Below are positions 23,864-38,160 of a DNA stretch of 64,000 nt, piece after piece. The DNA comes from Tabrizicola soli (lineage in GTDB: Bacteria > Pseudomonadota > Alphaproteobacteria > Rhodobacterales > Rhodobacteraceae): the NCBI RefSeq assembly GCF_015999335.1, contig NZ_JAEACP010000012.1, positions 1-64,000 of the forward strand, written 5' to 3'. The notes under the pieces are model-generated. The model was given only the letters and a program-made list of their open reading frames with translations, ran no database searches and was not told where the DNA came from. The first letter of the stretch is position 1; the number at the start of each line of letters is the position of its first letter. A program made the position numbers and the translations under genes.

Positions 23864-23864
23864 G

Positions 23865-24125
23865 TCAGGCCTCCGTTGCGAGGGGGCGGGTGACGTAGGG
23901 GCCCTTCATGTCGACCGGCTTGAAGCCAAGCTCGGACGCCATGCGGTGACGGATCTCGATGGTGATCTCTTCGGCCACCTTCCACATCTGCTCCGGGCTG
24001 GAGTAGGTGAACGACTGTCCGTTGTAGGAATAGGACGCGGCACCACGGGCGCGCTGTTCCAGGATGCGCTTGCGCATCGCCCGGAGGTCGGCGAGCGTGA
24101 AGCTTTCGGTGTCATACATACCCAT
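23865..24125 (-). CDS. gpW-like head-tail joining protein
   Basis: An 86-residue protein between terminase and portal, exactly where lambda W lies. It has the gpW pattern: helix LADLRAMRKRILEQRA, a beta hairpin SYSYNGQSFTYSS, and helix EQMWKVAEEITIEI. gpW stabilises filled heads and forms part of the connector. It has a late-class promoter 25 bp upstream, so this gene starts the portal transcript. Confidence 0.8.
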   Translation of the reverse strand: MGMYDTESFTLADLRAMRKRILEQRARGAASYSYNGQSFTYSSPEQMWKVAEEITIEIRHRMASELGFKPVDMKGPYVTRPLATEA

Positions 24126-24149
24126 GCGTGGGATCCCCTTATCTTGCCG

Positions 24150-24181
24150 GGGATATCGGTCCAGCGCGCGGTTTCCGCACG
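24150..24181 (-). promoter_or_regulatory. Late-class phage promoter for gpW-like/portal genes
   Basis: Minus strand CGTGCGGAAAC, spacer, CTGGACCGATATCCCC, spacing 17. The GCGTGCGG/CCGCGCGC arms around AAA could also form a hairpin. Confidence 0.75.
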
Positions 24182-24192
24182 CCGGGCCGGTC

Positions 24193-26274
24193 TCAAAAAC
24201 GGCCGACGCGGATCAGGCCTGGGCGGGGTGGTCCGTTGTGGCGCGGCACGTTGGTGTTCTTGGGCACCTTGATGCGGGTGGCCTCTTGCGGTGCAGGCGG
24301 TGCTGGCTCTTCGACCAGCGCGTCCTCGACGATGACTTCCGCGTCCTCGATGTGCCGCACCGCGGCTGCCTGGAACTTGTTCTCGCGCGCGAACAGGCGG
24401 CGCCAGCGTTGGCCACCCGCCATCTGGGCCAGGCCGTAAGTCGTGGCGTAGGCGTAGCCGAAGCAGTCGCCCGGCTCGTTGCCGTTGCGGCCGAGGCCCT
24501 TGGGCGCTTTCCAGATGGTCTGTCCTGGACGGCCTGGAACCGGGTATTGCTTTTCCAAGAGGAGGCGCTTGAAATACCGCTCGGCCTCCGTCCTGTCCGA
24601 AAAGTCGACCGAACCTTCGATGGGGTTGGCGTTGAACTCGAGGATGCCGTCGGCCAGGATAGGCGCGAGCTCGTCCTTCACCAAGTCGACGTCGATGGTG
24701 TAGAGACCGGCGACGTTCTTGGCCCCGGTCGTTGGCCAGATGCTCTTGCCGCGCGCGCCGTTTCCCTTGGACTCGCCACGCACCGCAAACCACTTTGCGC
24801 GGCCTGGCTTCTTGCGCATGCGAGCCAGCCATTCGACAACCCGGTTGGACGAGCCACCGTTGTGGTCGATGGCCAGGGCGTCGGCGCGCCGAGGGCGCCC
24901 CTCGCTGTCAGTGAACGTCCGGGACGCCAGCGTCTCCAGCGCGTCCCAAGCGCGCGGGTCGTTCTGTGGGAACTCGTCCAAGATCCAATGCCCGACGAGG
25001 AAGGGGCGGCGGCCGGGGCCGAACGCCCAAAGCGACGCCTCCAGATATGACTGGGATTCATCCAGGCCGCCACGCTGGCGGTCCACACCCCACACCAAGC
25101 CAACCGCCCACGCAGGCACCTCTCCACCGCAGTCGGCGATGCAGCCCATGAGCGCGTCCACCTCCGCCGCCGCTTGGCCAATGGCGTTAGAGAAGGGGAG
25201 GCCGAGGACCTCGTTCTTGAAGGACTGGATTTGTGTCGGGCCCGAGGCGCAGGCTTCCAGCCATTCGCGCACGATGTGCTTCCAGGTAGACTTCGGAGCG
25301 CGCGAGAACCAGGCCCACAGGTGGTAGCCCCGGCGGATCTTTTCCTCCGGGCGGTGCGGCACCCAGCGGCCAGCTTTGTCCATGGCCACCTTGTGGTGTT
25401 CTTCAATCCGGCAGCGCTCTTCGAGGTCCGGGTTGTGGCACTCATACCAGACCTCTTCCGGGTTCTCTTTGTTCCAGCGCATACCGCCGATGGACTCGGC
25501 GTCGCCCCAGTGTGGCACAAAGTCATAGCCGCAGTGCGGGCAGCACACGTGGCGGTGCCGTTGGTCCGATCCCAGGAACAGACGGTGCATCCGCCCGCCC
25601 TCTTCGACCGGAAACTTGGGTGTGGAGATGGCCGAGATCTGGCCGTCCCAGAACTGCGCCAGGCGGCGCCGTCCCATATCCCACTTGTCGCCGCCGCCCT
25701 TGACGGGCGCGTAGCCGTCGCGGTCGAACTCGTCGAGGTAGATCTTCTTGAGCGTATGGTCAGAGAAGTTGTCTTCGGCCTCGGCGCCCAGGCAGATGTA
25801 GGTCGCGCCGTTCTTGAAGTGGCGCTCAAGCAGCGTCTCGGTCTTCTTGCCCTTGGGCGTGAGGAACGCGATCTCCCGCATCTCCTTGATGCGCATCATC
25901 CGGATGTCAAAGCGCTTGCGCATGTAGCCTTCGGCCATCGCCTGGTTGGGACGATACATCGCTACCGGCTGCGGGTCGTAGTGCAGCCAGTACTGCTGGG
26001 CATGGTTGAGGCATTCCGAGATGCCCATCCTGGCGGACTTCATCACCACCAACTCGGGAACGGTGCTGTCGCAAAGGTCGTTCAGGATGTCCACCTGGAA
26101 GTCATAGGTCTCCCAGTTCATCACCTTGCCGCCTTCGACCAGCTTGCCGTATCGGTTGGCATACTCGGTGCCCGTCATCGCAGGCTTCGCTTTGAAGATC
26201 CGCCGCGTTGTGTTCTTGAAGGCGACACAGGCACGTGCACGCATTTGCTTTTGTGGCAGGACTGCGACGGTCAT
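24193..26274 (-). CDS. Terminase large subunit (GpA family)
   Basis: A 693-residue DNA-packaging ATPase and nuclease. The N-terminal ATPase carries the Walker A-like MKSARMGISE and a Walker B/ catalytic stretch KKIYLDEFDRDGYAP. A zinc-like CCPHCGYDFVPHW cluster, common in GpA proteins, lies near residues 240-252. The nuclease part includes GLVWGVDRQRGGLDE (first acidic residue) and ADALAIDHNGG. It cuts concatemeric DNA and powers its entry into the prohead. The gene overlaps the small subunit by 4 bases. Confidence 0.95.
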   Translation of the reverse strand: MTVAVLPQKQMRARACVAFKNTTRRIFKAKPAMTGTEYANRYGKLVEGGKVMNWETYDFQVDILNDLCDSTVPELVVMKSARMGISECLNHAQQYWLHYDPQPVAMYRPNQAMAEGYMRKRFDIRMMRIKEMREIAFLTPKGKKTETLLERHFKNGATYICLGAEAEDNFSDHTLKKIYLDEFDRDGYAPVKGGGDKWDMGRRRLAQFWDGQISAISTPKFPVEEGGRMHRLFLGSDQRHRHVCCPHCGYDFVPHWGDAESIGGMRWNKENPEEVWYECHNPDLEERCRIEEHHKVAMDKAGRWVPHRPEEKIRRGYHLWAWFSRAPKSTWKHIVREWLEACASGPTQIQSFKNEVLGLPFSNAIGQAAAEVDALMGCIADCGGEVPAWAVGLVWGVDRQRGGLDESQSYLEASLWAFGPGRRPFLVGHWILDEFPQNDPRAWDALETLASRTFTDSEGRPRRADALAIDHNGGSSNRVVEWLARMRKKPGRAKWFAVRGESKGNGARGKSIWPTTGAKNVAGLYTIDVDLVKDELAPILADGILEFNANPIEGSVDFSDRTEAERYFKRLLLEKQYPVPGRPGQTIWKAPKGLGRNGNEPGDCFGYAYATTYGLAQMAGGQRWRRLFARENKFQAAAVRHIEDAEVIVEDALVEEPAPPAPQEATRIKVPKNTNVPRHNGPPRPGLIRVGRF

Positions 26275-26861
26275 TCTGAGTCGACCTCTTCTTCGACCAA
26301 GAGGTCGGGCGGTATAGATGAGATCTTCAGCGCCGTTGGATTGGGGCCATCCTGCGTGAAAGCAGAGAAGGCTTTCTGGTGTGCCGCACGGACGAGGAGC
26401 GCGACCTCTCCATGTGTGCGGGCTACGTTCGCCAGCTGCGCGATAAGCTCCGGCTCTGTCGCTTCAATGCCGGCGCGGACTTCGGCCTCTTCTTCGGCGA
26501 GCAGCGCAACAGCATCGGACACCAGAACGATCTCTCCAAGCAGCATAGCGTTCTTGATCTCGACCTGGTCAGCGCGTCCTTTCGTCCATCGCGCCCGCTC
26601 CTTCTTCCACACGGCGTCGGAGTCCACCTCTCCCTCGTCGCCGTCTTTCACGAAGCCGAGGTATGCCCGGATCGTTTCAAAGGCGTTGTATTTTCCACGG
26701 GATTCCCGAACCGCAACGCCTTCATCCACCAGCTGCTGCAGACGGCGATCGCTCACACCGAGGAATGCGCACATCTGCGCCGTTCCCCAGAGTAGCTTGG
26801 GAAGGGCAGAGGCTGGCGCGTCCGCAGGTGTGGTCTGGTTTTCTTTGGGCGGGCGGGCCAT
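26271..26861 (-). CDS. Terminase small subunit (Nu1-like)
   Basis: A 196-residue DNA-recognition subunit. A winged helix-turn-helix is visible at residues 25-60 (TAQMCAFLGVSDRRLQQLVDEGV, here CAFLGVSDRRLQQLV), as in lambda Nu1, followed by a long helical region for oligomerisation and binding the large subunit. It should bind the cos or pac site. GAGG precedes the ATG. Directly upstream is a bidirectional hairpin. Confidence 0.85.
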   Translation of the reverse strand: MARPPKENQTTPADAPASALPKLLWGTAQMCAFLGVSDRRLQQLVDEGVAVRESRGKYNAFETIRAYLGFVKDGDEGEVDSDAVWKKERARWTKGRADQVEIKNAMLLGEIVLVSDAVALLAEEEAEVRAGIEATEPELIAQLANVARTHGEVALLVRAAHQKAFSAFTQDGPNPTALKISSIPPDLLVEEEVDSE

Positions 26862-26880
26862 GGGTTTTGCCTCAGGGAAA

Positions 26881-26905
26881 AGCCGGCTTGCGAACCGAAG
26901 CCGGG
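26881..26905. terminator. Bidirectional hairpin terminator before terminase genes
   Basis: CCGGCTT-GCGAACCG-AAGCCGG. On the minus strand it is followed by CTTTTCCC; on the plus strand by TTAGATTTTTTTG. Confidence 0.6.
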
Positions 26906-27145
26906 TTAGATTTTTTTGATATCCGGAGACGAACCGACCCTGTCCCCCCCTGCTACAGCACGGTGGGGTGATCCAGGGTCCCCCCTCGAGTCACCGAGGC
27001 ACTCATCGAGGATCGCGTCCGCAATAAAATCATCAATCATGGCACGCAGATGCTTGTCATATTGCGCGCCGTATTGTGCGGCGGTGCGAGCGGCAACCTG
27101 CCGCGCCTCGGTTATGGTGAGGGCCAGGTCAGTTGGCAGGCACAT
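26906..27145 (-). CDS. Small pre-terminase protein (79 aa)
   Basis: MCLPTDLALTITEARQVAAR..., a helical protein with an acidic DDFIADAILDECLGD segment. GAGGGGGG lies before the ATG at 27145. Its last codons run into the terminator hairpin. No family is recognised; position suggests an HNH-less packaging accessory or simply a leader gene. Confidence 0.55.
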   Translation of the reverse strand: MCLPTDLALTITEARQVAARTAAQYGAQYDKHLRAMIDDFIADAILDECLGDSRGDPGSPHRAVAGGDRVGSSPDIKKI

Positions 27146-27302
27146 CGGACACCCCCCTCTTTCCAGGCATCGTCTCGTCGCATGGGTCGGACGCGAGCGA
27201 TGGGACACCGGGGGGTGGGTATGCCACCACCTCCCCCAGGTTGCCCATGTCGATGGGCTCTTCCTTGGCTGTATGCGCGACGAGGTGGCGGAAGAGATTC
27301 AT
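27129..27302 (-). CDS. Small protein (57 aa), tentative
   Basis: MNLFRHLVAHTAKEEPIDMG..., 57 residues, overlapping the next gene by 17 bases. It has no clear ribosome site, and amino-acid composition is ordinary. It fits the chain of short leftward genes but could be non-coding. Confidence 0.4.
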   Translation of the reverse strand: MNLFRHLVAHTAKEEPIDMGNLGEVVAYPPPGVPSLASDPCDETMPGKRGVSDVPAN

Positions 27303-27342
27303 TGGGCTACCGGGGGTGGGGTGTTGTGAGGGTGGGGGTATG

Positions 27343-27621
27343 TCAGGGATTGGCCAGGCGGTCGGCCATGCGACGCACCTTCTCGAGGTAGGCACGGCGA
27401 GCACGTGCGCGCTCGTCGGCATTGAGCGATGGGCTGGCCATTACCTGATCGTATGCTTTGCGCAGAGTGAGTAGCTGCATGGCGATGGTCTGTGCCGTGT
27501 CGAGAGACCCAGCGCCTGGCTTGCGCCCTTCATACCAAGGCTTCACGACGTGGTCGCAGAAGCGGATCACGGCGTATGCTGTGGCGACGATTGCTGTGTT
27601 CCAGAGGATGTCTTCAAGCAT
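27343..27621 (-). CDS. Small membrane-associated protein (92 aa)
   Basis: MLEDILWNTAIVATAYAVIR... gives one N-terminal hydrophobic segment (residues 6-22), then a charged helical region (ERARARRAYLEKVRRMADRL). AAGGGAGA precedes the ATG and a clear phage promoter core lies 35 bp upstream. Its topology resembles small phage membrane proteins such as superinfection-exclusion or holin-like factors; no family is recognised. Confidence 0.7.
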   Translation of the reverse strand: MLEDILWNTAIVATAYAVIRFCDHVVKPWYEGRKPGAGSLDTAQTIAMQLLTLRKAYDQVMASPSLNADERARARRAYLEKVRRMADRLANP

Positions 27622-27656
27622 GATGGGGTCTCCCTTTGTTCTTGCCTTCCCTGCAG

Positions 27657-27684
27657 TTAGGGAAGGATCGCGGTGTTCCAAAAC
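27657..27684 (-). promoter_or_regulatory. Candidate phage promoter (TTTTGG-N15-CCCTAA)
   Basis: Minus strand TGTTTTGG, 15 bases including CACCGCGATC, CCCTAACTG. It matches 17616-17643 in 25 of 30 or so positions. It drives the 92-aa gene. Confidence 0.65.
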
Positions 27685-27688
27685 AGAT

Positions 27689-27868
27689 TCACCAGGCGCC
27701 CCACTGAGCGGCCCGACGTGCGCACCAGTCAGCCTCACGCTGGCGCTTGGCGGCCTTGGCTTCTTGCGCGTCCTGGTAAGCGGTGATGGCTTTGGCCAGG
27801 CCCAGGCTGATGATGATGCCCACACCGATGGTCAGTGCGGTGAGGGCGAGGATGGCGATGGGTGTCAT
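27689..27868 (-). CDS. Single-span membrane protein (59 aa)
   Basis: MTPIAILALTALTIGVGIII then SLGLAKAITAY: an N-terminal hydrophobic span of about 25 residues and a charged, Ala/Lys/Arg/Gln-rich tail (AKRQREADWCARRAAQW). AAGGACTGCC precedes the ATG at 27868. As the first leftward gene from the control region it is well placed for immediate-early or lysogenic expression, perhaps in superinfection exclusion. Function is unknown. Confidence 0.65.
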   Translation of the reverse strand: MTPIAILALTALTIGVGIIISLGLAKAITAYQDAQEAKAAKRQREADWCARRAAQWGAW

Positions 27869-28030
27869 GATGGCAGTCCTTGTGGCTGGTGTTGCTGTGT
27901 TGCTTTCCAGGTAGAAAGGATTTGGGGCCATCCCAAATGGATCGCCCACAAAATCGTTCGGCGTTGTTCTTTGCTTCGATGACGCCACAACATCTTGGGC
28001 TGGCCCTTATGGCGCCCGATTGCCTGCTTC

Positions 28031-28398
28031 ACTTTTCACAGAAATCACAGAGCCGGATCTGACAGATCGGCCAAAAACGGCCTCAAAAAGCCTTTTGCTT
28101 CCAGAGGCTTATCAACTTTTCACAGGAATAGCACTTACGTGGGCGCGCACTGTGGAAGGCAATCATCATCGAGATTTGAAAGAAGGGGGGATGGGGCATC
28201 TTCTTCTTTTCTAACCTTTCGCCCGCGCAAGTGCTGTTTGTGTGAAAAGCGCGTAAGATGTTGAAAAGTAATAAGGTTTTGCCAAGGCTTACAGTGCCCA
28301 TAATCGGCCGATTAGAAAAATATCACAGCCATTTTGTTGTTGCTTTACAATGGGTTATGCACTTTTCACATAAATCACAGGCGCTTTTTGTGAAAGGT
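28031..28398. repeat. Cluster of ACTTTTCACA..AATCACAG sites (operators or iterons)
   Basis: Direct copies are at 28031-28050, 28115-28134 and 28361-28380, an inverted copy at 28231-28250, and partial copies at 28258-28269 and 28385-28398. The consensus is ACTTTTCACANNAATCRCAG. Three copies are preceded by a TTATGC- or TTATC-like block (GGTTATGCACTTTTCAC, GGCTTATCAACTTTTCAC, CTTACGCGCTTTTCAC on the minus strand). Confidence 0.8.
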
Positions 28399-28401
28399 GC
28401 G

Positions 28402-28432
28402 TTTGCAGAGCAGCCCGATCGGGACCCATTTG
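28402..28432 (+). promoter_or_regulatory. Candidate rightward promoter (core GGACCCATTTG)
   Basis: The core CCCATTTG at 28425-28432 is preceded at the usual 13-base distance by TTTGCAGAGC, a weak match to TTTTGGGATC. It lies 46 bp before the DUF3987 gene, between the last CTTTTCACA repeat and the start codon. Confidence 0.5.
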
Positions 28433-28478
28433 GCTCCAAGCCGACGGAGATCGGCGGAACCAACCAAGAGCTGCCAAC

Positions 28479-30188
28479 ATGGAATCCATCGAGCAAACCC
28501 AAATCGAAGCCGCAGCAGCTGCCGCTGTTGCTGACTTCCTCGCCTCTCCCGAGGTTTCGGGGGAAGGCCCAAAGCCTGCTATTGAAGCGCCGCCGGTTCG
28601 CATTGCACCAGAGCCATTGGACTTCTTTGGCGACACGTCCCTCACCGGGCGACAGGACATGACGCCGGACATGCTGCCCAAGGTCCTGTGGGATTACGCA
28701 TCCGACGCGGCGGCCCGCCCAGGACTGAACGTCGCCGCCATCGCCGCCGGATGCATCGTTGCCGCCGCGACCGCCATCCGCGCCGGATGGGTCTTGCAGC
28801 CCAAGATCCACGACACCGACTGGATCGAGAAGCCCATCCTTTGGTTCGGCCTCACCGGGCAGTCTGGTGCCAAGAAGACTTCCGCCATCAACGCGGCCGT
28901 GGCGCCGCTCACCGCCCTCGAAAAGCGCGCCGAGCTCCAAGCCGAGGAGCTTTGGAAGACATACCGGCGAGAGAAGGCCTTCTACAACGAGGAGATGAAG
29001 GTGTGGCGTGCGGACTACAAGGCCGCCCGCAAGGAAGGCGAAACGCACCAAGAGGCCATGGAGAGCTGCCCCAAGCCCGAAGAGCCCGAGAAGCCTGTAG
29101 TGCCGCGCATCGTGGCCGACGACACGACCATCGAAAGCCTGATGAAGCTCTGCGCCGACAATCCCGACGGCATCGTCCAGGTGCGCGACGAGTTGTCGGA
29201 GTGGCTGGCGTCGTTCGACCTTTACAGCGGCGGCACAGGCAACCGCGACCGCGGCAAATACCTGACCGCCTACAACGGCAGTTCAGCGACCAAGGACCGT
29301 GCCAGCGACGAAGAGGGGCCGATGCGCGTGAAGTCGTTTGCCGTGTCCATCATGGGCGGCATCCAAGACAAGGTCCTGGGCGAGCGCTTCAAGAACGACA
29401 GCCGCGATGGCTTCTTGGCGCGCTTCCTCCTGTGCCGTGCCGAGCGCCTGGAAGGCCGCGACGTGACGCCTGACTTCAAGGCAGCCCAAGCCTATTTCGA
29501 GACCATCTTCCGCCTCCACAGCATGACGTTGCCCGAAACCGTCGGTGGGGACGTTCGGGGCCGCATCCTGATGTCGCCGGGCGCGGCTGCGCTGCGCGAG
29601 GAGATCGAGGCCATCTCCCACCACCTGTCCAACCATCCGCTGGTTGTGCCTGGTCTGTCCGACCACCTGAACAAATGGCCGGGGATGTTTTCCCGCCTGT
29701 GCCTGGTCTTTCACATGCTCGAAGCGGCGGCGGCCGGCGTAGAGCCCGACCAGCACGTGTCCGAGGAAACCGCCCGTCGCGCCTTCCGCCTCTTGACGGA
29801 GTTCTTCCTCCCCGAGGCCGCTCGCGTCTACAACGAGGTCATGCAGGGCGATACCCAGACCCAGCACGCCCGCTGGATCGCCGGCCACATCCTCGCCCAG
29901 GGCTTGGAGCGCGTGTCGGTCTTCGAGATCCGTCGTGCCTTCTCTGCGCTGAGTGACGACGTGCGCGCCATCGAGACCGCCACCCAGGTCCTGGAGCTTG
30001 GCGCCTGGATCACCCCTGACGGCAAGCGCGCGGCGCGTCACGACTTCGCGAAAATGAAGTTCCGCGTGAACCCGCGCGTCCACGAGATGTTCGCCGAGCG
30101 TGCCGACCGCGAGCGTATCGAACGCGAGGCCGCCAAGGAGCGGATCGCCAAGGGCGCCGAGGCGGTGCGCAAGCTGCGCAAGAAGTGA
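28479..30188 (+). CDS. DUF3987-type replication protein (AAA/helicase-like)
   Basis: A 569-residue protein of the YfjI/DUF3987 group found in phage and plasmid replication modules, related to RepA-like and primase-associated helicases. A Walker A variant GLTGQSGAKKTS is at residues 124-135 (two Lys). A Walker B-like stretch GIVQVRDELSEWLASFD is near residues 235-250, and SFAVSIMGGIQD follows. The C-terminus is basic and helical (ERIEREAAKERIAKGAEAVRK). It is the first gene of the rightward transcript and probably initiates phage DNA replication near the adjacent repeats. Confidence 0.85.
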   Translation: MESIEQTQIEAAAAAAVADFLASPEVSGEGPKPAIEAPPVRIAPEPLDFFGDTSLTGRQDMTPDMLPKVLWDYASDAAARPGLNVAAIAAGCIVAAATAIRAGWVLQPKIHDTDWIEKPILWFGLTGQSGAKKTSAINAAVAPLTALEKRAELQAEELWKTYRREKAFYNEEMKVWRADYKAARKEGETHQEAMESCPKPEEPEKPVVPRIVADDTTIESLMKLCADNPDGIVQVRDELSEWLASFDLYSGGTGNRDRGKYLTAYNGSSATKDRASDEEGPMRVKSFAVSIMGGIQDKVLGERFKNDSRDGFLARFLLCRAERLEGRDVTPDFKAAQAYFETIFRLHSMTLPETVGGDVRGRILMSPGAAALREEIEAISHHLSNHPLVVPGLSDHLNKWPGMFSRLCLVFHMLEAAAAGVEPDQHVSEETARRAFRLLTEFFLPEAARVYNEVMQGDTQTQHARWIAGHILAQGLERVSVFEIRRAFSALSDDVRAIETATQVLELGAWITPDGKRAARHDFAKMKFRVNPRVHEMFAERADRERIEREAAKERIAKGAEAVRKLRKK

Positions 30189-30240
30189 TCCCGACTGGGG
30201 GCCGGGTTATGCCTCCGCAGCTCACCGCCACGGCGGCACC

Positions 30241-30270
30241 TGGCCCCTCTTCGGAGGGGCCTTTTCTGTT
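30241..30270 (+). terminator. Intrinsic terminator after the DUF3987 gene
   Basis: GGCCCCTC-TTCG-GAGGGGCC followed by TTTTCTGTTTTT. The T-run merges into the upstream box of the sigma-gene promoter. Confidence 0.85.
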
Positions 30271-30300
30271 TTTGGGATCCCCCTGATTTTTACCCATCTG
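30269..30300 (+). promoter_or_regulatory. Early-class phage promoter of the sigma gene
   Basis: TTTTTGGGATC (30269-30279), exactly 13 bases, then CCCATCTG (30293-30300). The same spacing and both boxes recur at 36337-36368 and 43304-43334. The ATG of the sigma gene is 21 bases downstream, so the sigma factor may activate its own gene. Confidence 0.75.
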
Positions 30301-30321
30301 CCCTCCAACAGGGAGGCGCCG

Positions 30322-31089
30322 ATGCGCAGCACAGACTACACCAAAGAGGACCGCAACGCGCTGGCCGTGCGCGCCCAGCAGGGCGACGTGCGAGCGCGGC
30401 GCGCGCTGGTGGACGCGATGCAGGGGTTGGTCGTCATGTTCGCGCTGAAAGGCCGCGGATGGAGCGGCGGTCTCGTCGACTTGGAAGACATGAAGACGGA
30501 AGCGTGGATCGCCGTTTTCGAGGCGATCGACAAGTTCGACCCGAGTCAGCCAGACGCCAACTTCTCGGGTTTGTGCTCTTGGCTGATGCAGGAAAGGGTC
30601 GGCATGGCGGCCCGCGAAGCGGGTGTCGTTCGTCTTGGGCGTGGCAATCGCACAAAAGTAGCCAGCCTCAAGCTGCGCGGGCTCATGTCGGACCATGAGG
30701 CCAAAGGCCTGTCAGTGGAACAGGCACTCCATGAGGCGGCGAAGACTCTGCAGATCTCGGAGACCGAGGCGGCGCACATCATGCGCAACGCAAGAACCGT
30801 GGCCGTGGGTGTGGAGGAGGGAGAACACGAGCCCGTCGACGAGGGGCCAGACGTCGTGGAGGTCATCAACGAAGACGACACCAAGCGTGTGCTTGGGGAG
30901 ATGCTGGACATCCTGAACGAGCGCGCGCGGGGCATCGTCGTGGACCGTGCCAACGGTGTTTCACTCGAGGAAATCGGGGAGAGGGTTGGCCTGTCCAGGG
31001 AGCGCGTGCGCCGGATCTGGGGCGACGCCATAACGGACCTGCAGACAGAAGCAAAGCGCCGTGGAATCGTGTTTGCGGATCTCTTCTGA
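30322..31089 (+). CDS. Phage RNA polymerase sigma factor, sigma-70 family of RpoH type
   Basis: A 255-residue sigma factor that would redirect host RNA polymerase to phage promoters. Region 2 spans about residues 16-95 (DAMQGLVVMFALKGRG...DLEDMKTEAWIAVFEAIDKF, quoted here only in part: AWIAVFEAIDKFDP). Residues 102-121 (VVRLGRGNRTKVASLKLRGL) resemble the RpoH-specific box of heat-shock sigmas. Region 4 is at 186-245 with the helix-turn-helix SLEEIGERVGLSRERVRRIW at 214-233. Region 1.1 is absent. The ATG at 30322 follows GGGAGG. It is the only transcription factor with clear promoter-recognition domains in the prophage, and promoter-like elements of RpoH flavour precede most operons. Host-chromosomal alternatives are excluded by its position. 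Confidence 0.9.
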   Translation: MRSTDYTKEDRNALAVRAQQGDVRARRALVDAMQGLVVMFALKGRGWSGGLVDLEDMKTEAWIAVFEAIDKFDPSQPDANFSGLCSWLMQERVGMAAREAGVVRLGRGNRTKVASLKLRGLMSDHEAKGLSVEQALHEAAKTLQISETEAAHIMRNARTVAVGVEEGEHEPVDEGPDVVEVINEDDTKRVLGEMLDILNERARGIVVDRANGVSLEEIGERVGLSRERVRRIWGDAITDLQTEAKRRGIVFADLF

Positions 31090-31116
31090 ACGCATTTTCT
31101 TTGTTTATTTTTCCGT

Positions 31117-31157
31117 GGCTTATGCGATTTTTTGCTTTTCGGCTCCATATTATTTGC
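31117..31157 (+). promoter_or_regulatory. A/T-rich conserved upstream element, copy 1
   Basis: GGCTTATGCGATTTTTTGC followed by TTTTCGGCTCCATATTATTTG. The element recurs upstream of the genes at 32871 and 38289. GGCTCCATATT contains a CCATAT core like RpoH -10 boxes. The downstream GCGGGACGCAT is also shared with copy 2. Confidence 0.6.
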
Positions 31158-31232
31158 GAGGTGGCGCGGCGGGACGCATCTGTCTTGTAAGGGAGGCGAT
31201 GGTCGCCCCCGCGCAACCGAAGGAACCCCGCC

Positions 31233-31757
31233 ATGAACACCACCGACACCATCACCGCAGCCCTGGAAGCCCGCCGCGCCGATCTCGAGGCTTCTTATGA
31301 CCGCACCGTGCGCTCCACCTTTGATCGCCTGGCCGAACGTTTTGGGAAGACGTTTGATCGCGTCTACAACACCCACCAGGCGCCCACGTTCAAGAACCTG
31401 GTCGAGCCCAACCTGGCCGCGCGCAAGACCGACCGTGTTGGCGAAATCCGCGAACTGGACGACGCCCGCATCGCACGCAACGCGTCCGCCTACGCCACCT
31501 TCGTGATCCAGGCATGGGGCGAGAAGATCGCGCAGAAGATGGGTGAGGTCGAATCTGCCGTCGTTTCGTCGCTGGACACCTGGTCGTTCAAAATCGTTGG
31601 CCAGGTGAACGGCCACACAGTTCGCATCGAGCAGCGCATGATCGTCAATTTCTCGACCAAGGGCACCCCGTTCAACCAGTTTCCAGCTCGCGTCTACGTG
31701 GACGGAAAAGCAACCACCGCCGCTGCCTGGAAGGCGCTTAGCCAGGTTGCAGCCTGA
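31233..31757 (+). CDS. Unknown prophage protein (174 aa)
   Basis: MNTTDTITAALEARRADLEA... is helical and charged in its first half (DRTVRSTFDRLAERFGKTFDR) and strand-rich in its second (FKIVGQVNGHTVRIEQRMIVNF). No enzyme motif or membrane segment is visible. GAAGGAACCCCGCC precedes the ATG. It lies alone downstream of the first A/T-rich element. Confidence 0.75.
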   Translation: MNTTDTITAALEARRADLEASYDRTVRSTFDRLAERFGKTFDRVYNTHQAPTFKNLVEPNLAARKTDRVGEIRELDDARIARNASAYATFVIQAWGEKIAQKMGEVESAVVSSLDTWSFKIVGQVNGHTVRIEQRMIVNFSTKGTPFNQFPARVYVDGKATTAAAWKALSQVAA

Positions 31758-31806
31758 CAACACGCGGGGGCTGGCGCCCCCGCACCCCCACAGGAGGACG
31801 AAACCC

Positions 31807-32022
31807 ATGACACAAGAACAGCAGATCGCCGGACAGTCCGTCTCTCTGGTCGCTGCCGCGCTTTTTGCCGGCCGGTCGGATGTGGATGTGTGGGCGGCGC
31901 TTGACGCCGAGAACCTGGCCCTCGAAGCCGCGCTGGATGAGGGGCGGCTTCGGGATGCCAGCAGGCACCTGACCCGCGTCGAGGCCCTGACGGGCGAAGT
32001 GAAGCGGAGGGCATCCGCATGA
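31807..32022 (+). CDS. Small acidic protein (71 aa)
   Basis: MTQEQQIAGQSVSLVAAALF..., all-helical, with a segment DVDVWAALDAENLALEAALD. AGGAGGACG precedes the ATG and the stop overlaps the next ATG (ATGATG). No family is recognised. Confidence 0.65.
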   Translation: MTQEQQIAGQSVSLVAAALFAGRSDVDVWAALDAENLALEAALDEGRLRDASRHLTRVEALTGEVKRRASA

Positions 32023-32690
32023 TGCCCAACGTGCAGGTCCTGCGTCGTGCGCCTGGGCTGATGCCGCGCCCGACCCGCGCTTACGTGATGGCCGAGCATG
32101 GCCCGTGCGAGCGCGCGCTGTTGCTGCGCCAACGCATTGGGATGGCGCTGGCCATCCTCGCGGCCGCCGAGACGCAGCCGGGCCTCGACCCGCGCGCCGC
32201 TGCGCACTGTGCCAGGCTTCGCGCCCAGATTGCGCACCTGCCGACGGCCTGGGAGGGCGCGTTCGGTCGATCGTGGGAGGACGGGCGCCAGCTGCATTGG
32301 CTGGAGACCGCACAGAAGCGCGGCCCAGCCGCGCTGGCGTTGCTTGCCCAGGCCTACCCGTGCGGCAGCCACCGCCGGCCCCTGGACGAATACCCGCCAT
32401 GGCAAGCCGCCCGCGCGACGTGCCTGGCCATCCGGGCCGATGCCGAGCGCGAGGCGCGCCTGGAGATGGACCGCCGCCGCCAGGTCCTGCGCGAGCACAT
32501 AGCCAGCGCCCGCATGGAGGAAGCCATCCGCGCCGCCCGCACCGCGCGCCGGTGGGAAGAGGCGCAACGCCGCCAAGCCCAGGCCGAGCGCCGCCGGCAG
32601 GAACAGGAGCTCCGCGCGTTCCGCACGGGCACGCAGCGCCGGGTGCGGTTCCCGAACGAGCGGCGCAAGCAGCGGGTCCGCAGTCGCTGA
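32019..32690 (+). CDS. Arg-rich coiled-coil protein (223 aa)
   Basis: Residues 1-130 are Ala/Leu/Arg-rich helices with several Cys and Trp. Residues 135-200 form a continuous charged helix (EAIRAARTARRWEEAQRRQA) likely to be a coiled coil. The tail is strongly basic (RRVRFPNERRKQRVRSR), suggesting nucleic-acid binding. Function is unknown. A GTCCCGC/GCGGGGC hairpin ends the transcript just after the stop. Confidence 0.65.
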   Translation: MMPNVQVLRRAPGLMPRPTRAYVMAEHGPCERALLLRQRIGMALAILAAAETQPGLDPRAAAHCARLRAQIAHLPTAWEGAFGRSWEDGRQLHWLETAQKRGPAALALLAQAYPCGSHRRPLDEYPPWQAARATCLAIRADAEREARLEMDRRRQVLREHIASARMEEAIRAARTARRWEEAQRRQAQAERRRQEQELRAFRTGTQRRVRFPNERRKQRVRSR

Positions 32691-32694
32691 AATG

Positions 32695-32712
32695 GTCCCG
32701 CTTTGGCGGGGC
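32695..32712 (+). terminator. Hairpin terminator after the 223-aa gene
   Basis: GTCCCGC-TTTG-GCGGGGC, then an A/T-rich stretch with several T-runs (CTTTCTTTGTTTTATTTT). Confidence 0.6.
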
Positions 32713-32741
32713 CTATCAACTTTCTTTGTTTTATTTTCAAT

Positions 32742-32782
32742 GACTTATGCGATTTTTTAGGTTTTGGCTCCATATTCTTTGC
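32742..32782 (+). promoter_or_regulatory. A/T-rich conserved upstream element, copy 2
   Basis: GACTTATGCGATTTTTTAGG followed by TTTTGGCTCCATATTCTTTG. It is nearly identical to copy 1 and shares the downstream GCGGGACGCAT. Confidence 0.6.
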
Positions 32783-32870
32783 AGACCCGTGAGGCGGGAC
32801 GCATATGGAATGTATGGGAAGCAATCAAGCGGCCCAACGCCCGAAACAGGGCACAACAGGAGAGAAGACC

Positions 32871-33323
32871 ATGCGCCCACACCACGTTGAACTTGTCGAC
32901 ACGCTGATCGCCTACGTCGGGGCACGGATGCCAAACGACCCGTATGCGGTTTCCATGCTCGAGCTCGCGAGCACGCTGGACCAAGACGATTTTGCTGGAA
33001 GCGTCGCGGTCGGCGCGCTTTTGACGCGCGTCCTCAAGGGCGTCGTGTCGGAGATGTCTTTTCGCGCAGTCCCCTTCGATCGCAAGAAGACGCTGGAGGC
33101 AATCGACGCGCGTAATGCGAAGGACCCCATCCACATCACCACGATCTACAACATCGTGACGCCTTACAAGATGGGCGATGTCTGGAAAGATGCTTTCGAC
33201 GGCAAGACGCACGAAGAGATGATGCAGGCGATCCTCGAGCTCCATCTCGCAGGCTACCCTGTTTTTGCGATGGGGCAAACAGAAGGCGATCTGCGGCGCG
33301 TGCGGGAGATGAGCGCGGAATGA
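32871..33323 (+). CDS. Unknown prophage protein (150 aa)
   Basis: MRPHHVELVDTLIAYVGARM..., mainly helical with no enzyme motif seen. AGGAGAGAAGACC precedes the ATG. Downstream of copy 2 of the A/T-rich element, it is likely an early gene. Its stop overlaps the start of the 59-aa gene. Confidence 0.7.
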   Translation: MRPHHVELVDTLIAYVGARMPNDPYAVSMLELASTLDQDDFAGSVAVGALLTRVLKGVVSEMSFRAVPFDRKKTLEAIDARNAKDPIHITTIYNIVTPYKMGDVWKDAFDGKTHEEMMQAILELHLAGYPVFAMGQTEGDLRRVREMSAE

Positions 33324-33499
33324 AACCCACCGCCCACGACCTCCTACGCAGCGCGGCTCGGTTCGGAGCCGCGCCGACGCAGGACGTCCGGCTGGCGCAC
33401 CTGTGCGACCCGAGTCCGGATGTGCGCCGGTTGGCCTGGTTGGAGCTGTTGAAGAGGTGTCCTGGTTATCGCAGGCTGGAAGAGGCCAGGGCGCGCTAA
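33320..33499 (+). CDS. Small basic protein (59 aa)
   Basis: MKPTAHDLLRSAARFGAAPT... and a C-terminal half DVRRLAWLELLKRCPGYRRL. The ATG overlaps the previous stop (ATGA). It ends 4 bases inside the convergent VRR-NUC gene. Basic helices suggest DNA binding, unproven. Confidence 0.55.
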   Translation: MKPTAHDLLRSAARFGAAPTQDVRLAHLCDPSPDVRRLAWLELLKRCPGYRRLEEARAR

Positions 33500-33972
33500 G
33501 CCGCGCCCTTCTTCATGGCAGCCCGCGCAGCCGCAACGCGAGCGGCCAGGGCGGCACGCTCTTGTGGTGTCGGGGCGACTGCGTTCCACACGGCCTCGAC
33601 CGCCTCTTCTGCCGACCGCGGCATGACGTAGACACCGCCCGCTCGTTCGATGTTGCGCTGGAAGACCTTCTGCGCAGCCCTCTGCCTGCCGGTCGCAGTC
33701 TTCATCTCGACGCCGATCCAGCGCCCCTCGAGCGAGCCCTGGACGTCGTTCCCGCCCTCGATGCCGTAAGACACGACCGGGAGGGTGGCGATGGTGCGCA
33801 GCACGGCCGCGAGGCCGCCCCGCGCATAGGCCGCTTTGAGGCGCTTGGGCAGCGCACGGATGGACGAGTAGGGCACACCGGATCCCACGTCGCACGTCCA
33901 GAACAGCCCGAGGGGTGCAAACGCCGCGGACAGCAGCAGCTCCGCCTTCTTCTGGTCGGTTCTCTCGCTCAT
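33496..33972 (-). CDS. VRR-NUC domain nuclease
   Basis: A 158-residue PD-(D/E)XK-type nuclease. The VRR-NUC pattern is clear: GNDVQGSLEGRWIGVEMKTA (Asp in NDVQG, Glu and Lys in GVEMK), then QRAAQKVFQRNIERAGGVYV. Stand-alone phage VRR-NUC proteins act on branched DNA and are usually paired with an SF2 helicase, as here, where the genes overlap by 4 bases. The pair runs against the surrounding plus-strand genes and has its own late-class promoter. Confidence 0.85.
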   Translation of the reverse strand: MSERTDQKKAELLLSAAFAPLGLFWTCDVGSGVPYSSIRALPKRLKAAYARGGLAAVLRTIATLPVVSYGIEGGNDVQGSLEGRWIGVEMKTATGRQRAAQKVFQRNIERAGGVYVMPRSAEEAVEAVWNAVAPTPQERAALAARVAAARAAMKKGAA

Positions 33973-35564
33973 GCCGCCTCCTGTTCCTCTGGTGGTGCCA
34001 TGGCGACGCGCAGGGCCTCCCGCAGCTCTTCCAGCTTGGCGTGCTCTTTGAACCCGGACTCGGCCAGGTCGACTCCGATGGCGATCGCCTCTTCCAGGCG
34101 GCCGTCCTTGACCGCTTTCATGGCCCGGCCCTGCAGCTGGTGAAACGCCGCGAACTTGGCGTTCTTCGCGCCGGCCGAGCGCAGCGCCCGAACCTTGCCT
34201 TCATAGAACCGCTCGCGCTTGATGGCCTTCTGGGCCTGTGCGTGTGCCGCCTCTTCCTCTTGGCGTTGGACCAGGCGCATCTCCGCGGCGACCGCGGCCG
34301 GTATGCGCGGGTCCGGCCCGTGCTCTGTGCCGCAGTAGGGGCACACCGTCGCCGGGGTCTGGTAGACTTGGAGGCACGCGTCGCACCGCCGGCTGGAGAT
34401 GTCCTCGCCGTCCTCGGTGTGGGTGTGCTTCTTCCTGGTGGGCTCTTCGCCTTCCAGGCACCAGGTTCTGGCCTTCAGCGGGTGGCCGTGCCGGTGCCAG
34501 TTGCCCGCGCAGTCCACGACCGTGGCGCGGGGCTTGGGGCCGGCCGCGATGGCCGCCAGGCGCCCCGGCATGGTGTCCAGGTCGAATCCGTCCGCGTAGA
34601 CCGTCCGCAGGACCCGGCCAACCTGTTGGAGGTAGAGGGACAGGCTTTGGGTTGGCCTCATGAGCAGGCAGGCATCGATGGATGGCAGATCGAAGCCTTC
34701 CGATATGACGTCGACGCAGCACAGGACTCTGGTTTCGCCTCGTGCCAGGCGCGCCAGTTTTCCGCTCCGGACCTCTCCCTGGTCCTCGCCCAGCAGGACT
34801 TCGGCCGGGATGCCCGCTGCGTTGAACGCCGCAGCGGCCATCTCCGCGTGTTTCTTGGAGCAGCAGAAGGCCACGGCCGTCCCGCCTGGACGGACGTAGC
34901 GCTGGAACGACAGGACCGCGTTGCCGAACACCCGCGACCGTTCCAGGGCGGCCTCCATGGCCTCCTGGTCGAAATCCCCGCCGCGCGAACTGACGCCGCG
35001 CATGTCGGGCACGAACGGCGCCCAAACGTCCACGTCTGTGAGGTAGCCCTGCTCGACGAACCAGGCGGGCGGCGGGCCGTCGATGTGTGCGTCGAAGATG
35101 CCCTGGAAGCCCTTGCCGTCCAGGCGCCACAGGGTCGCCGTGAATCCGATGCGGTAAGCGTCGGGCCAGCCGTTCAAGAATGCCATGTATCCGTCGGCCG
35201 GGGAATGGTGGCACTCGTCGATAAGGACCACGTCGGGCACGGGCAGCTTGTCCCAGCGCTTCGCCAGTGTGGGGGCCATCGCCACCTGGATCGTCTTCCA
35301 CGGTTCGAACGGCGCCCAAGGTGCGACGATTCCAGGATCGCCGCCGGCCGCCCTGATGCGCTTCGCCTGGTCGCGGGCGATCTCTTCACGCGGGACCGTC
35401 ACCACGACTCTCTTGCCTGCCTGCGCCAGCTGGACCGCCGTCTCTGCTTCGAGGGTGCCCTTGCCCGTGCCCGTCGGCAGCGTGATGACCGGTGCGCGGG
35501 CGTCGCCCTTGATGGCTGCGAAGGCCCGGCGCTTGGCCGTGGTCTGGTAATCTCTGGCGGCCAA
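33969..35564 (-). CDS. SF2 DEAD/DEAH-type helicase with zinc motif
   Basis: A 531-residue ATP-dependent helicase. Motifs: Walker A LPTGTGKG (29-36), DECHH (about 115-119), GFTATLWRLDG, VISEGFDLP and LQQVGRVLRT (motif VI). A C-x2-C...C-x2-C cluster (CDACLQ...CPYCG) near residues 415-440 may bind zinc and the C-terminus is a long helical region. It probably processes recombination or replication forks with the VRR-NUC partner. The only plausible start is TTG at 35564, with GGGGGA seven bases upstream; the first internal ATG would delete the Walker A motif. Confidence 0.87.
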   Translation of the reverse strand: MAARDYQTTAKRRAFAAIKGDARAPVITLPTGTGKGTLEAETAVQLAQAGKRVVVTVPREEIARDQAKRIRAAGGDPGIVAPWAPFEPWKTIQVAMAPTLAKRWDKLPVPDVVLIDECHHSPADGYMAFLNGWPDAYRIGFTATLWRLDGKGFQGIFDAHIDGPPPAWFVEQGYLTDVDVWAPFVPDMRGVSSRGGDFDQEAMEAALERSRVFGNAVLSFQRYVRPGGTAVAFCCSKKHAEMAAAAFNAAGIPAEVLLGEDQGEVRSGKLARLARGETRVLCCVDVISEGFDLPSIDACLLMRPTQSLSLYLQQVGRVLRTVYADGFDLDTMPGRLAAIAAGPKPRATVVDCAGNWHRHGHPLKARTWCLEGEEPTRKKHTHTEDGEDISSRRCDACLQVYQTPATVCPYCGTEHGPDPRIPAAVAAEMRLVQRQEEEAAHAQAQKAIKRERFYEGKVRALRSAGAKNAKFAAFHQLQGRAMKAVKDGRLEEAIAIGVDLAESGFKEHAKLEELREALRVAMAPPEEQEAA

Positions 35565-35589
35565 AAGAAATCCCCCGCGGGTTGCGCGG

Positions 35590-35606
35590 GGGATATCGGT
35601 CCAGGC
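35590..35606 (-). promoter_or_regulatory. Late-class phage promoter core for helicase/nuclease genes
   Basis: Minus strand GCCTGGACCGATATCCCC, 27 bp before the TTG start. The distal box reads AAGCGAGAC instead of GTGCGGAAA, so only the proximal half is fully conserved. Confidence 0.6.
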
Positions 35607-35624
35607 GGGGCGTCTCGCTTGCCG

Positions 35625-36179
35625 TCAGAACAGCGGCGTGCCGGCGTCCTCGAAGAACTCGGTGGCGGTGGGTGCTGCTTTGGGCTTTCGACCGGCGGGC
35701 AACCGCCCCCGGTGTGCTTCAGCCGCAGTGGCCGCCCAACCCTTGGAGTAGCGCCGACGGCCGGCGATCAAGTCCTTGACACGCTGGACCGACAGGCCCG
35801 TGGCCGCGACGAGCTCCCGGCGCGTGCCCTGGGCCTTGGCGCCCGAGGTGTGGTGGAACGTGTGAATCTGGACGTCGGCGTTGCCGTGCTCTTGGAACAC
35901 GGACAGCTGCACGACCCGCGCGAGCAGGCCGGGGTCCGCCTCGACCAGGGCCGCGCTGCCTTTCAGTGTGAGCATGCTGTGGACATCGCGGGCGTGCCGA
36001 CGTGCGCCACCGGCGCCCAGCATGGCCGCCACGGTGTCGAGGTAGAGGTGCTGTCCCTTGCACCAATCGGCGGCGCTGAACCAGCCGCTGAGCAGCTTCC
36101 AGGGCGTGTCGCGGGTGTAGCTCGGGCTGCCGTTTGCGACGAAATCGAGCAGTTGGTCGGTGGGTGTTGGGGTGTTCAT
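35625..36179 (-). CDS. Possible DNA-binding protein (184 aa)
   Basis: A 184-residue protein with a candidate helix-turn-helix near residues 135-155 (RELVAATGLSVQRVKDLIAG) followed by a basic stretch (RRRYSKGW). The N-terminal two thirds look like a helical sensing or oligomerisation part (DTVAAMLGAGGARRHARD). It is transcribed divergently from erf, with candidate promoters of both orientations between. It is one of two regulator candidates in the prophage, but no named repressor family is evident. Confidence 0.6.
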   Translation of the reverse strand: MNTPTPTDQLLDFVANGSPSYTRDTPWKLLSGWFSAADWCKGQHLYLDTVAAMLGAGGARRHARDVHSMLTLKGSAALVEADPGLLARVVQLSVFQEHGNADVQIHTFHHTSGAKAQGTRRELVAATGLSVQRVKDLIAGRRRYSKGWAATAAEAHRGRLPAGRKPKAAPTATEFFEDAGTPLF

Positions 36180-36205
36180 GGGGTGTCTCCTTTTGGTTGG
36201 CGATC

Positions 36206-36238
36206 GGGAAATAGGGACACGGACCCACGATCCAAAAC
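36206..36238 (-). promoter_or_regulatory. Candidate phage promoter (TTTTGGATC...CCCTATTTC)
   Basis: Minus strand TTTTGGATCGTGGG, then TCCGTGTCCCTATTTCC. The right half is identical to the plus-strand element at 44719-44750 (CCGTGTCCCTATTTCC). It drives the 184-aa gene. Confidence 0.6.
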
Positions 36239-36336
36239 AAAATCGATGCGAACGACCAGGCGCAATACCGCCAAAAAGGTGCACCCCATAAGCCTCTGAT
36301 ATGGATCACGAAAAATATGGGCACCGACGCGCTTTC

Positions 36337-36368
36337 TTTTTGGGAAGCGCCTCGGATGGACCCATCTG
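36337..36368 (+). promoter_or_regulatory. Early-class phage promoter of the erf/exonuclease genes
   Basis: TTTTTGGGAAG (36337-36347), exactly 13 bases, CCCATCTG (36361-36368). Same layout as at the sigma and ssb genes. Confidence 0.75.
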
Positions 36369-36404
36369 AACCTCACGAGCAGCGCCAGCAGAAGGAAGAA
36401 CCCC

Positions 36405-37319
36405 ATGGCCAAGATTGAAACCATCGATGCAGAAACTGGCGAGGTCATCGACGCCACCCCGGTCGCACAGTCGGCGCCCATCGCCGTCCAGGCAACCACC
36501 GCCATCGCCACGACCGACCCCATGATGGCGATGATCGAGCGCGTGGTGCTTGACCCCAACGCGGACATCTCCAAGCTCGAGCGGTTGCTCGACATGAAGG
36601 AGCGCCTGGAAGACCGCGCCCGCGACGACGCGGCGGCCGGCGCCAAGCGCGCCTTCTTCGCCGCCCTGGCATCCGCCCAGGCCGAGATCCCCGTGGTCCT
36701 GCGCACCCGCAAGAACAGCTTCGCGGGCTACACTTACGCCGACCTGGCCGACATCGAGACCCAGGCCATGCCCATCATCCGCAAGCATGGCTTCGCCGTC
36801 GTGGCGCGGTCCGAGGCGGGCGGTGAGGCTGGCATGCAGCGCGTGCGCATGCAGGTGTCCCACGTCGCCGGGCACGTCGAAGACTTCGCCGACGACTTCC
36901 CGATCGACGCCGGCGGCAAGGACGGCAAGAGCAACAAGACCGGCGTGCAGGCCAAGGGCAGCACGACCAGCTACGGCCGTCGCTACATGCTCTGCGGCTT
37001 CTTCGGCATCGCCACGGCGGACGACGACGGCCAGGGCGGCCGCCGCGACCCGCGCGCGCGTGGTGTCCAGGCGCCGGCCGCAGCCCCGCAGCCCACGACG
37101 CTGTCCGGCCACCAGGTTAACACCCTCCGCAAGCTCATCGCCGAGTCTGCGTCGGAAGAGGCCAAGGTTCTGGCCTTCGCCAAGGCCGACTCCGTCGAGG
37201 AAATCGCGCCGGCCGACTACCCGCGTGTCGAGGGGCTGCTGAAGCGGAAGATCGCGGAAGCCAAGGCCAAGAAGGCCGAGGAAGCCGCCAAGCCCGCCGC
37301 TGAACCGGCCAAGGCCTGA
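36405..37319 (+). CDS. erf: ERF-family single-strand annealing recombinase
   Basis: A 304-residue ERF protein that anneals complementary single strands in phage recombination. The conserved ERF core is at residues about 65-210: RAFFAALASAQAEIPVVLR, then FAGYTYADLADIETQAMPII, HGFAVVARSE, and the STTSYGRRYMLCGFFGIATADDDG signature (here YGRRYMLCGFFGIA). The C-terminus is Ala/Lys-rich. It is followed by a lambda-type exonuclease gene, the classic pair that makes and then anneals 3' overhangs. Confidence 0.93.
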   Translation: MAKIETIDAETGEVIDATPVAQSAPIAVQATTAIATTDPMMAMIERVVLDPNADISKLERLLDMKERLEDRARDDAAAGAKRAFFAALASAQAEIPVVLRTRKNSFAGYTYADLADIETQAMPIIRKHGFAVVARSEAGGEAGMQRVRMQVSHVAGHVEDFADDFPIDAGGKDGKSNKTGVQAKGSTTSYGRRYMLCGFFGIATADDDGQGGRRDPRARGVQAPAAAPQPTTLSGHQVNTLRKLIAESASEEAKVLAFAKADSVEEIAPADYPRVEGLLKRKIAEAKAKKAEEAAKPAAEPAKA

Positions 37320-37373
37320 ACCCGAGGCGGGCCCACGCGGCCCGCCACCAAACCCCAACAGGAGAACACGGCC

Positions 37374-38123
37374 ATGGACGGCTCTTTCAACACAGACGGG
37401 CTCGAACTGCCCGCACCCGACCTCATCCTCCCCAACGGCGCCCAAGCCTGGCGCGCGGTCGAGCAGGGCAGCTGGGAGTGGCTCATGCTGCGCGCCGGCC
37501 TGCCCACCGCCTCGGAGCTCGCCTCGCTCCTGGTGAAGGGCAAGGACCCCAAGAAGGCCAACGGTCTTGGCGCGGGCGCCATCACATACGCCCACACCGT
37601 CGCCGCCGAGCTCATCCTGGGCGGGCCAGTCAGCAACTTCCAGGGCAATGAACACACCGAGCGCGGGCACGCTTTGGAGGGCGAGCTGGCCGACAACTAC
37701 GCGCTCTTGCGTGGCGTCGACCTCGACACGCTGGGCTTCATCCGCCTCGGCCGCTTCGGGTATTCCCCGGACCGCCTGGTGGGCGCCAACGGCCTGTTGG
37801 AGGTCAAGGCCCCGCAGCCGCACAAGGTCATCGGCATGCTGCGCGACGCTGACTTCCCGAGCGACTACCGCGCACAGTGCCTGGGCGGCCTGTATGCCAC
37901 CGACCGCGAATGGATCGACCTGGTGGCCGGCGCGCGGGACCTGCCCGAGTGCATCCGCCGCCTGGACCATGAGCGCGTGCGGGCCGAGGTGGAGGCCCTG
38001 CGCGACGCCCTGGACCGGTTCGTGGCTTACGTCGACGACACCGTGGCGTTCATCCGTGGGATCGCAGGCGACGGCCCGGACGCCGCCGCCCTGGCCCAGG
38101 CTCTGCCCGTCGCGGCCGAGTGA
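37374..38123 (+). CDS. YqaJ/lambda-type viral exonuclease
   Basis: A 249-residue nuclease of the PD-(D/E)XK family. Active-site residues are seen in GHALEGELADNYALL (Glu), GYSPDRLVGANGLLEVKAPQ (Asp in SPDRL, Glu and Lys in LEVKAP) and YRAQCLGGLYAT (Gln). It should digest the 5' strand of double-stranded ends, giving ERF its substrate. The gene begins 54 bases after erf in the same transcript and ends at a strong hairpin. Confidence 0.9.
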   Translation: MDGSFNTDGLELPAPDLILPNGAQAWRAVEQGSWEWLMLRAGLPTASELASLLVKGKDPKKANGLGAGAITYAHTVAAELILGGPVSNFQGNEHTERGHALEGELADNYALLRGVDLDTLGFIRLGRFGYSPDRLVGANGLLEVKAPQPHKVIGMLRDADFPSDYRAQCLGGLYATDREWIDLVAGARDLPECIRRLDHERVRAEVEALRDALDRFVAYVDDTVAFIRGIAGDGPDAAALAQALPVAAE

Positions 38124-38125
38124 AA

Positions 38126-38160
38126 GACCGGCCCCGCTTCGGCGGGGTCGCTTCACTTTG
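38126..38160 (+). terminator. Intrinsic terminator after the exonuclease gene
   Basis: CCCCGC-TTCG-GCGGGG core with flanking pairs (GACCGG.../...GGTC), then GCTTCACTTTGTTTT. Confidence 0.75.

Follow-up and report, generated by a model that had tools for sequence, protein, structure and literature searches.

Genomic Context of the Prophage Sigma Factor

The window, i.e., the whole 64-kb stretch of DNA analysed here, contains a 44.7-kb prophage (2073..46802) at a tRNA-Ala gene (46778-46853), which is its integration site. The host is probably an alphaproteobacterium close to Rhodobacteraceae. A 26-nt att core is found at either end (2073-2098 and 46777-46802, with 24 of 26 positions matching) and an integrase is encoded at 2196-3665; these att repeats at the tRNA gene, together with the integrase, mark the prophage as that of a temperate phage. 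The minus strand carries the structural and lysis genes, encoding endolysin, tape measure, major tail protein and major head protein as well as head protease, portal and terminase, and the plus strand carries genes for a DUF3987 protein (28479), a phage sigma factor (30322), Erf (36405), an exonuclease (37374) and SSB (43365). The prophage proteins scanned, which made up part of the gene set and of which about half had no family, included no recognisable regulator of the CI/Cro/Q type. The sigma gene, reported in a preliminary description of this DNA as an open reading frame of 255 aa, was confirmed on the plus strand at 30322..31089. Between the DUF3987 gene and the promoter-like element of the sigma gene lies a terminator-like hairpin on the plus strand (30242..30261), terminator-like hits over the region being not above those in shuffled sequence (16 against a mean of 13.5, sd 4.0).

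Elsewhere in the prophage, a DNA methyltransferase gene adjoins one for a SmaI-type restriction endonuclease (39809-41484; Pfam SmaI, E 3.3e-69), and an ArdC-type anti-restriction protein is encoded at 42441-43304. Upstream of the DUF3987 gene (28015-28400), words like CTTTTCACA are repeated in both orientations in an iteron-like arrangement, as judged by eye, and perhaps form a replication origin; words similar to CTTTTCACA were also seen by eye before DUF3987 in P056, one of the related phages described below. A 105-nt element with T-rich stretches and words like GGCTCCATATT occurs in three copies (31096-31200, 32721-32825 and 38157-38261), of which the second and third are 76% and 61% like the first; each copy sits a short way upstream of a plus-strand gene or at that gene's start, and by eye the element partly resembles the region upstream of DUF3987 in P055 and P056.

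A Phage Sigma Clade Distinct from RpoH

The window sigma exceeds the cut-off of the NCBIfam sigma-70 superfamily model TIGR02937 (61.8 bits against 42.9), and its best PHROG match is phrog_351 (E 1.1e-20, residues 3-251 of 255), a broad family of phage RNA polymerase sigma factors that comes without promoter information. The region 4 helix-turn-helix described previously is borne out by Pfam Sigma70_r4 (37.5 bits, cut-off 24.1), and region 2 was found by Pfam Sigma70_r2 at 18.3 bits, under the cut-off of 24. An AlphaFold2 model built from four input sequences (mean pLDDT 75.9, pTM 0.41) aligns over its whole length with solved full-length sigma factors, SigmaS first (best E 1.8e-8, about 270 columns); the TM-scores are low (best 0.37 and 0.35) and the rmsd is near 17, and the model therefore does not fix the arrangement of the sigma domains. 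Against the NCBIfam RpoS model the protein scores 64.5 bits, the cut-off being 378.7.

The protein had been taken for a heat-shock sigma of the RpoH type, with the peptide VVRLGRGNRTK as its RpoH-like box. It shares its size and, as far as the sub-threshold region 2 match goes, the sigma2-4 layout with the RpoH (sigma-32) factors of alphaproteobacteria, and the peptide is present; however, the RpoH box Q[KR]xLFFNLR is absent, TKVASLKLR standing at the place that aligns with QKxLFFNLR of the two host RpoH paralogues. Identity to each of these paralogues is only 24%, the score against the NCBIfam RpoH model TIGR02392 is 44.4 bits, far under the cut-off of 323.1, and in the tree the protein falls in a separate phage clade rather than with host RpoH. 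On the strength of the missing box, the score and the clade, we rejected its identity as RpoH.

This clade (support 99/97) consists of seven phage-type sigmas: that of the window (W), those of the virus-collection records P055, P056 and P108, and those of the genomes G088, G391 and G253. They are 22-42% identical to one another and 18-28% to the two host RpoH, all seven miss the RpoH box, and they have in common an end like RGL.L.DL (RGIVFADL in W). The tree also held nine selected RpoH rows, which grouped at 80/80; support is weak for 11 of its 14 inner branches, and the W row is a long branch. A short, divergent sigma-like open reading frame at G007:C37 (41493-42101), in a prophage that also has elements of both classes described below, was left out of the tree.

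Searches with the window sigma itself gave no match among phages by tblastn, and no relative among the 38 stretches of genome contigs that matched a pattern; L009, its sole match in viral contigs, does not look like a sigma factor when read. The relatives were found through DUF3987, TerL and searches of family genomes, and DUF3987 profile scans of viral and genome contigs added none. In the sigma search 387 of 394 family genomes matched, with no gap in the E-values below 9e-43 that would separate phage sigmas from RpoH. The relatives taken from this search come from its top matches, and further phage sigmas may lie among the rest. Matches in G283, G014, G263 and G007:C1 showed the RpoH box when read and were not used, and those in G059 and G102 were left out of the phage set.

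Two Families of Promoter-Like Elements in the Prophage

The element described before the sigma gene, TTTTTGGGATC-N13-CCCATCTG, was found as reported at 30269-30300, and the proposal that it is common to other genes of the prophage is supported. It belongs to a family that we call class E, like TTTTGGA-N15-CCTAnnTC, with eight members in the prophage, each 21-39 nt upstream of an ATG preceded by a Shine-Dalgarno sequence (SD); for prophage positions picked at random, the share with an SD-preceded start 15-50 nt downstream is about 12%. The genes concerned are those for sigma, Erf and SSB, one gene of the tail module and four small or unnamed genes. On the plus strand, the exact form TTTGGGA-N15-CCCATCTG precedes sigma (30271..30300, 21 nt from the ATG), Erf (36405; element 36339..36368) and SSB (43365; element 43305..43334), and TTTTTGG-N15-CCTATTTC (44720..44749) precedes a gene for 63 aa at 44786. 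On the minus strand, TTTTGGA-N15-CCTATTTC (36208..36237) stands before 36179-35625 (184 aa), TTTGGGA-N15-TCTACCTG (27908..27937) before 27868-27689 (59 aa), TTTTGGA-N15-CCTAACTG (27654..27683) before 27621-27343 (92 aa), and TTTTGGT-N15-CCTAACTG (17613..17642) before 17580-17026, the gene after that for the major tail protein; an E element at G007:C37:32020 precedes what is, judged by place, the apparent counterpart of this last gene. When the spacer between TTTGGGA and CCCATCTG was allowed to vary from 12 to 18 nt, the window gave only the three matches at 30271, 36339 and 43305, all with a spacer of 15 (expected in shuffles, 0.00), and the broader pattern TTTBNG-N16-HCYANNTS gave 10 matches against 0.54 expected. 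The two further matches of the latter (6960 and 8054, plus strand) have no SD-preceded start nearby and are taken as chance. A degenerate E-like sequence outside the broader pattern, TTTGCGA-N15-CGCATCTG (31153..31182, plus strand), precedes the gene at 31233.

A second family, class L, was absent from the preliminary description. Its form TGCGGAA-N15-GATATCCC has four exact matches in the window, all on the minus strand and all 23-33 nt upstream of an ATG: before a connector-like gene at 24125-23865 (24150..24179; the connector match is weak, E 0.0088), the head maturation protease gene at 22146-21109 (22170..22199), the major tail protein gene at 18441-17686 (18475..18504) and the endolysin gene at 7604-6825 (7638..7667). 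A variant with three mismatches, all in the -35 part, AGCGAGA-N15-GATATCCC (35590..35619, minus strand), precedes a helicase gene at 35564-33969. Structural or lysis genes are thus preceded by five elements, four of class L and one of class E, and CCCATCTG occurs in none; the earlier view of the CCCAT elements as the late-gene switch is not supported. Class and module cross over twice, in the E element inside the late module (17613) and in the L variant ahead of the helicase gene (35590).

Elements and Spacer Length in Related Phages

Co-conservation of the sigma gene and its element in related phages, as predicted earlier, was found: an E-type element precedes the sigma gene in W and in all six relatives that could be judged (P055, P056, P108, G088, G253 and G391), a count for which the pattern was drawn up on the same sequences and widened after the G391 element had been seen. 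G087, where the sigma match starts at about residue 53, was left out of it. Under the narrower pattern six of the seven sigma-gene elements are exact, and that of G391, with two mismatches, fits the widened pattern only; since the pattern was made and widened on the sequences counted, we lowered our confidence in the main explanation slightly. An E element also lies upstream of DUF3987 in P055 and P056. By eye, the E element upstream of sigma in P055, P108 and G088 has a downstream half, like CCTAYCTCC, that is complementary to the Shine-Dalgarno sequence following it and could form a hairpin over the ribosome site if transcription started further upstream.

The spacer of 15 nt stood out when patterns were scanned over a range of spacers in six phages (W, P055, P056, P108, G391 and G007:C37). 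Class E gave 38 matches at 15 nt, 15 at 14 and 6 at 16, whereas the 22 other spacers (5-13 and 17-29) averaged about 5. By phage, in the order above, the matches at 15 nt number 10, 8, 7, 4, 4 and 5, and G391 taken alone has no peak there (5 at 14 nt, 4 at 15). By the rule applied to the random prophage positions above, a start follows 21 of the 38 (8, 3, 4, 2, 1 and 3 by phage), compared with 15 of 112 pooled over the 22 other spacers. Class L gave 11 matches at 15 nt and otherwise 2, 4 and 1 at three of 24 other spacers, and a looser L pattern gave 17 at spacer 15, 14 of them before a start. The words were cut such that the spacer is 15 in each class; the sharpness of the peaks is independent of this cut, and the number common to the classes depends on it in part.

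Late elements vary between the phages. P055, P108 and G007:C37 have structural genes akin to those of W, and their counterparts of L read CCCGAAA, AACGAAC and ACCGGAA, with GATATCTC and GATATTCC; in P108 the -35 part is present at only three of six GACCGATATT sites. P056 and G391, with structural genes related to each other, have a late element of the form GCG[AG]-N15-C[CA]CATCT[CT], which gave 14 matches at 15 nt, six of them before a start, and at most 2 at any other spacer; its downstream part resembles the CCCATnT of the RpoH consensus. The sigma of G391 is nearer that of P055 (38%) than that of P056 (27%), and its late elements resemble those of P056, with which it has the structural module in common, so late elements go with that module and not with the sigma.

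The three exact copies in the window are inverted repeats (TGGG..CCCA), and at 31153 paired changes keep the dyad (TGCG..CGCA), so the E elements might be operators of a dimeric regulator rather than promoter contacts. By eye, however, the dyad is absent from the sigma-gene elements of all six relatives, even if some E elements retain a weaker GGA..TCC, and the outer parts are asymmetric, with TTT at one end and CTG or TC at the other; we regard operators as an improbable explanation.

Specificity of the Elements

In the whole host genome the strict E pattern TTTKGGA-N15-YCYANCTG has five exact matches, all in the prophage; allowing one mismatch adds three, of which one is in the prophage, the reversed control pattern giving three. 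The L pattern has four exact matches, again all in the prophage (control 0), with four matches elsewhere in the genome at one or two mismatches, and TTTTGG-N16-CCTANNTC has a single match, in the prophage (control 0). Class E is at background in bacterial DNA of the window's genome and of related ones (225,258 bases), with 3 matches at spacer 15 and 1-10 at others; the P056-type late pattern has 4 at spacer 15 there, other spacers giving 0-5.

No L or P056-type late match at spacer 15 was found in five control phages (203,637 bases) that lack a match to the sigma profile at E 1. Class E had eight matches at that spacer, while each of the remaining spacers from 10 to 20 had 0-4; all eight lie inside annotated genes and none is intergenic, and three of the eight precede a start, compared with 1 of 55 at other spacers. 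These phages bear on the suggestion that the sigma acts on host genes or is a passenger, the E and L elements being read by other phage proteins. About half of the prophage proteins scanned, themselves part of the gene set, had no family, and such an activator may exist; against it stand the E element ahead of the sigma gene in seven phages and the lack of an L family and of intergenic E elements in the sigma-less controls, and we give this suggestion little credence.

In viral contigs, a scan for the exact element returned 40 stretches, none matching the sigma at E 1e-4 and four matching portal, helicase or exonuclease weakly; two of the stretches, L084 and L087, come from one contig, are alike in their flanks too and were set aside as a repeat. 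Pattern scans gave 8 stretches for L and 81 for E, and of the 88 of 89 loci examined (all but L245) one holds a phage-type sigma, on a record scoring the same as P056; the remaining loci are taken as chance. Pattern-free counts of gapped words showed the late elements, even though in several regions G+C-rich words dominated them.

Which Factor Reads the Elements

The comparisons support a phage sigma gene that is accompanied by a putative phage-specific promoter family. Such a family is likely because the element precedes the sigma gene across sigmas that are only 22-42% identical. We infer that the E and L elements are promoters, and likewise their order in time. On balance we favour, with confidence a little beyond even, the explanation that a family of temperate phages encodes its own sigma70-type factor, which would direct the host polymerase to phage-specific promoter families. 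That the phage sigma reads at least one of the two classes appears probable; for class E by itself the case is about evenly poised, and so it is for class L, of which the phage sigma is a natural candidate reader.

An alternative is a two-step cascade, in which a host sigma of the RpoH kind reads E, placing the early genes including the phage sigma under stress control, and the phage sigma reads only L. The host has two RpoH paralogues, as identified by the RpoH box, most late genes are preceded by a distinct element, and all eight window E elements contain TTG. Published RpoH promoters are given as CTTGAA-N15-16-CCTATAT and CTTGCC-N15-16-CCTATCT (PMC4843759, citing Barnett 2012), and E resembles these in spacer and downstream element (CCTATnT, N15-16), although its -35 is not CTTG. 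Across the seven phages, however, the sigma-gene element reads TTTC.G, without TTG, in six, and changes in TTG are reported to lower RpoHI activity by at least 80% (PMC3441632). Exact strict E forms are moreover confined to the prophage in the host genome, and E is at background in the bacterial DNA. E elements are more alike between phages than the phage sigmas are, as would also be expected of a conserved reader in the host. Taken together, we consider this cascade unlikely.

Returning to a phage sigma as the reader of E, we propose that the factor, which has no RpoH box, would bind the host core RNA polymerase and start transcription from phage-specific promoters of fixed geometry, with a 7-nt upstream element, 15 nt and an 8-nt downstream element. 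The sigma gene would stand behind its own class E promoter just downstream of the terminator-like hairpin, such that a little sigma could yield more sigma together with more products of the E genes (Erf, SSB and small genes). Autoregulation through the E element is plausible, its chances being roughly equal either way. The form TTTGGGA/CCCATCTG, common to the sigma, Erf and SSB genes of W, was not seen before the sigma genes of other phages, as expected if one diverged phage factor reads all three, and this common form is the best argument for autoregulation. Late class L promoters with the same geometry may be read by the same sigma, or one further factor may be needed. That a single sigma reads both a self-amplifying E set, its own gene included, and late L promoters that differ in the -35 but keep the 15-nt spacing is a tentative possibility that we hold to be rather unlikely; two different -35 forms are not easily read by one sigma.

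The phage sigma factors known best are those of virulent phages, such as the late sigmas T4 gp55 and SPO1 gp28 and gp33/34. These redirect the host polymerase to phage promoters, as is proposed for the window sigma; the present case differs in its temperate, tRNA-integrating phage with two promoter-like families and one spacer length. Phage-borne sigma genes are likewise found in Bacillota, where they are discussed in relation to dormancy and sporulation (PMC9429907); for the window sigma the likely target is the phage's own promoters. The literature covered, mostly outside subscription journals and at the level of titles and the beginnings of abstracts, included no paper on temperate phages in this group of hosts whose sigma factor has promoters of its own, which is weak evidence of novelty.

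If one sigma reads both E and L, a single sigma would replace, in this family, the CI/Cro early and Q late circuits of ordinary temperate phages. A fast-diverging sigma clade is present in a tRNA-integrating prophage and its relatives, the promoter-like families can be assigned to individual genes, and in every phage nature has paired one sigma with a set of elements. Such pairs make both the specificity of sigma factors (region 4.2 against the -35, region 2.4 against the -10) and the circuit of prophage induction directly testable.
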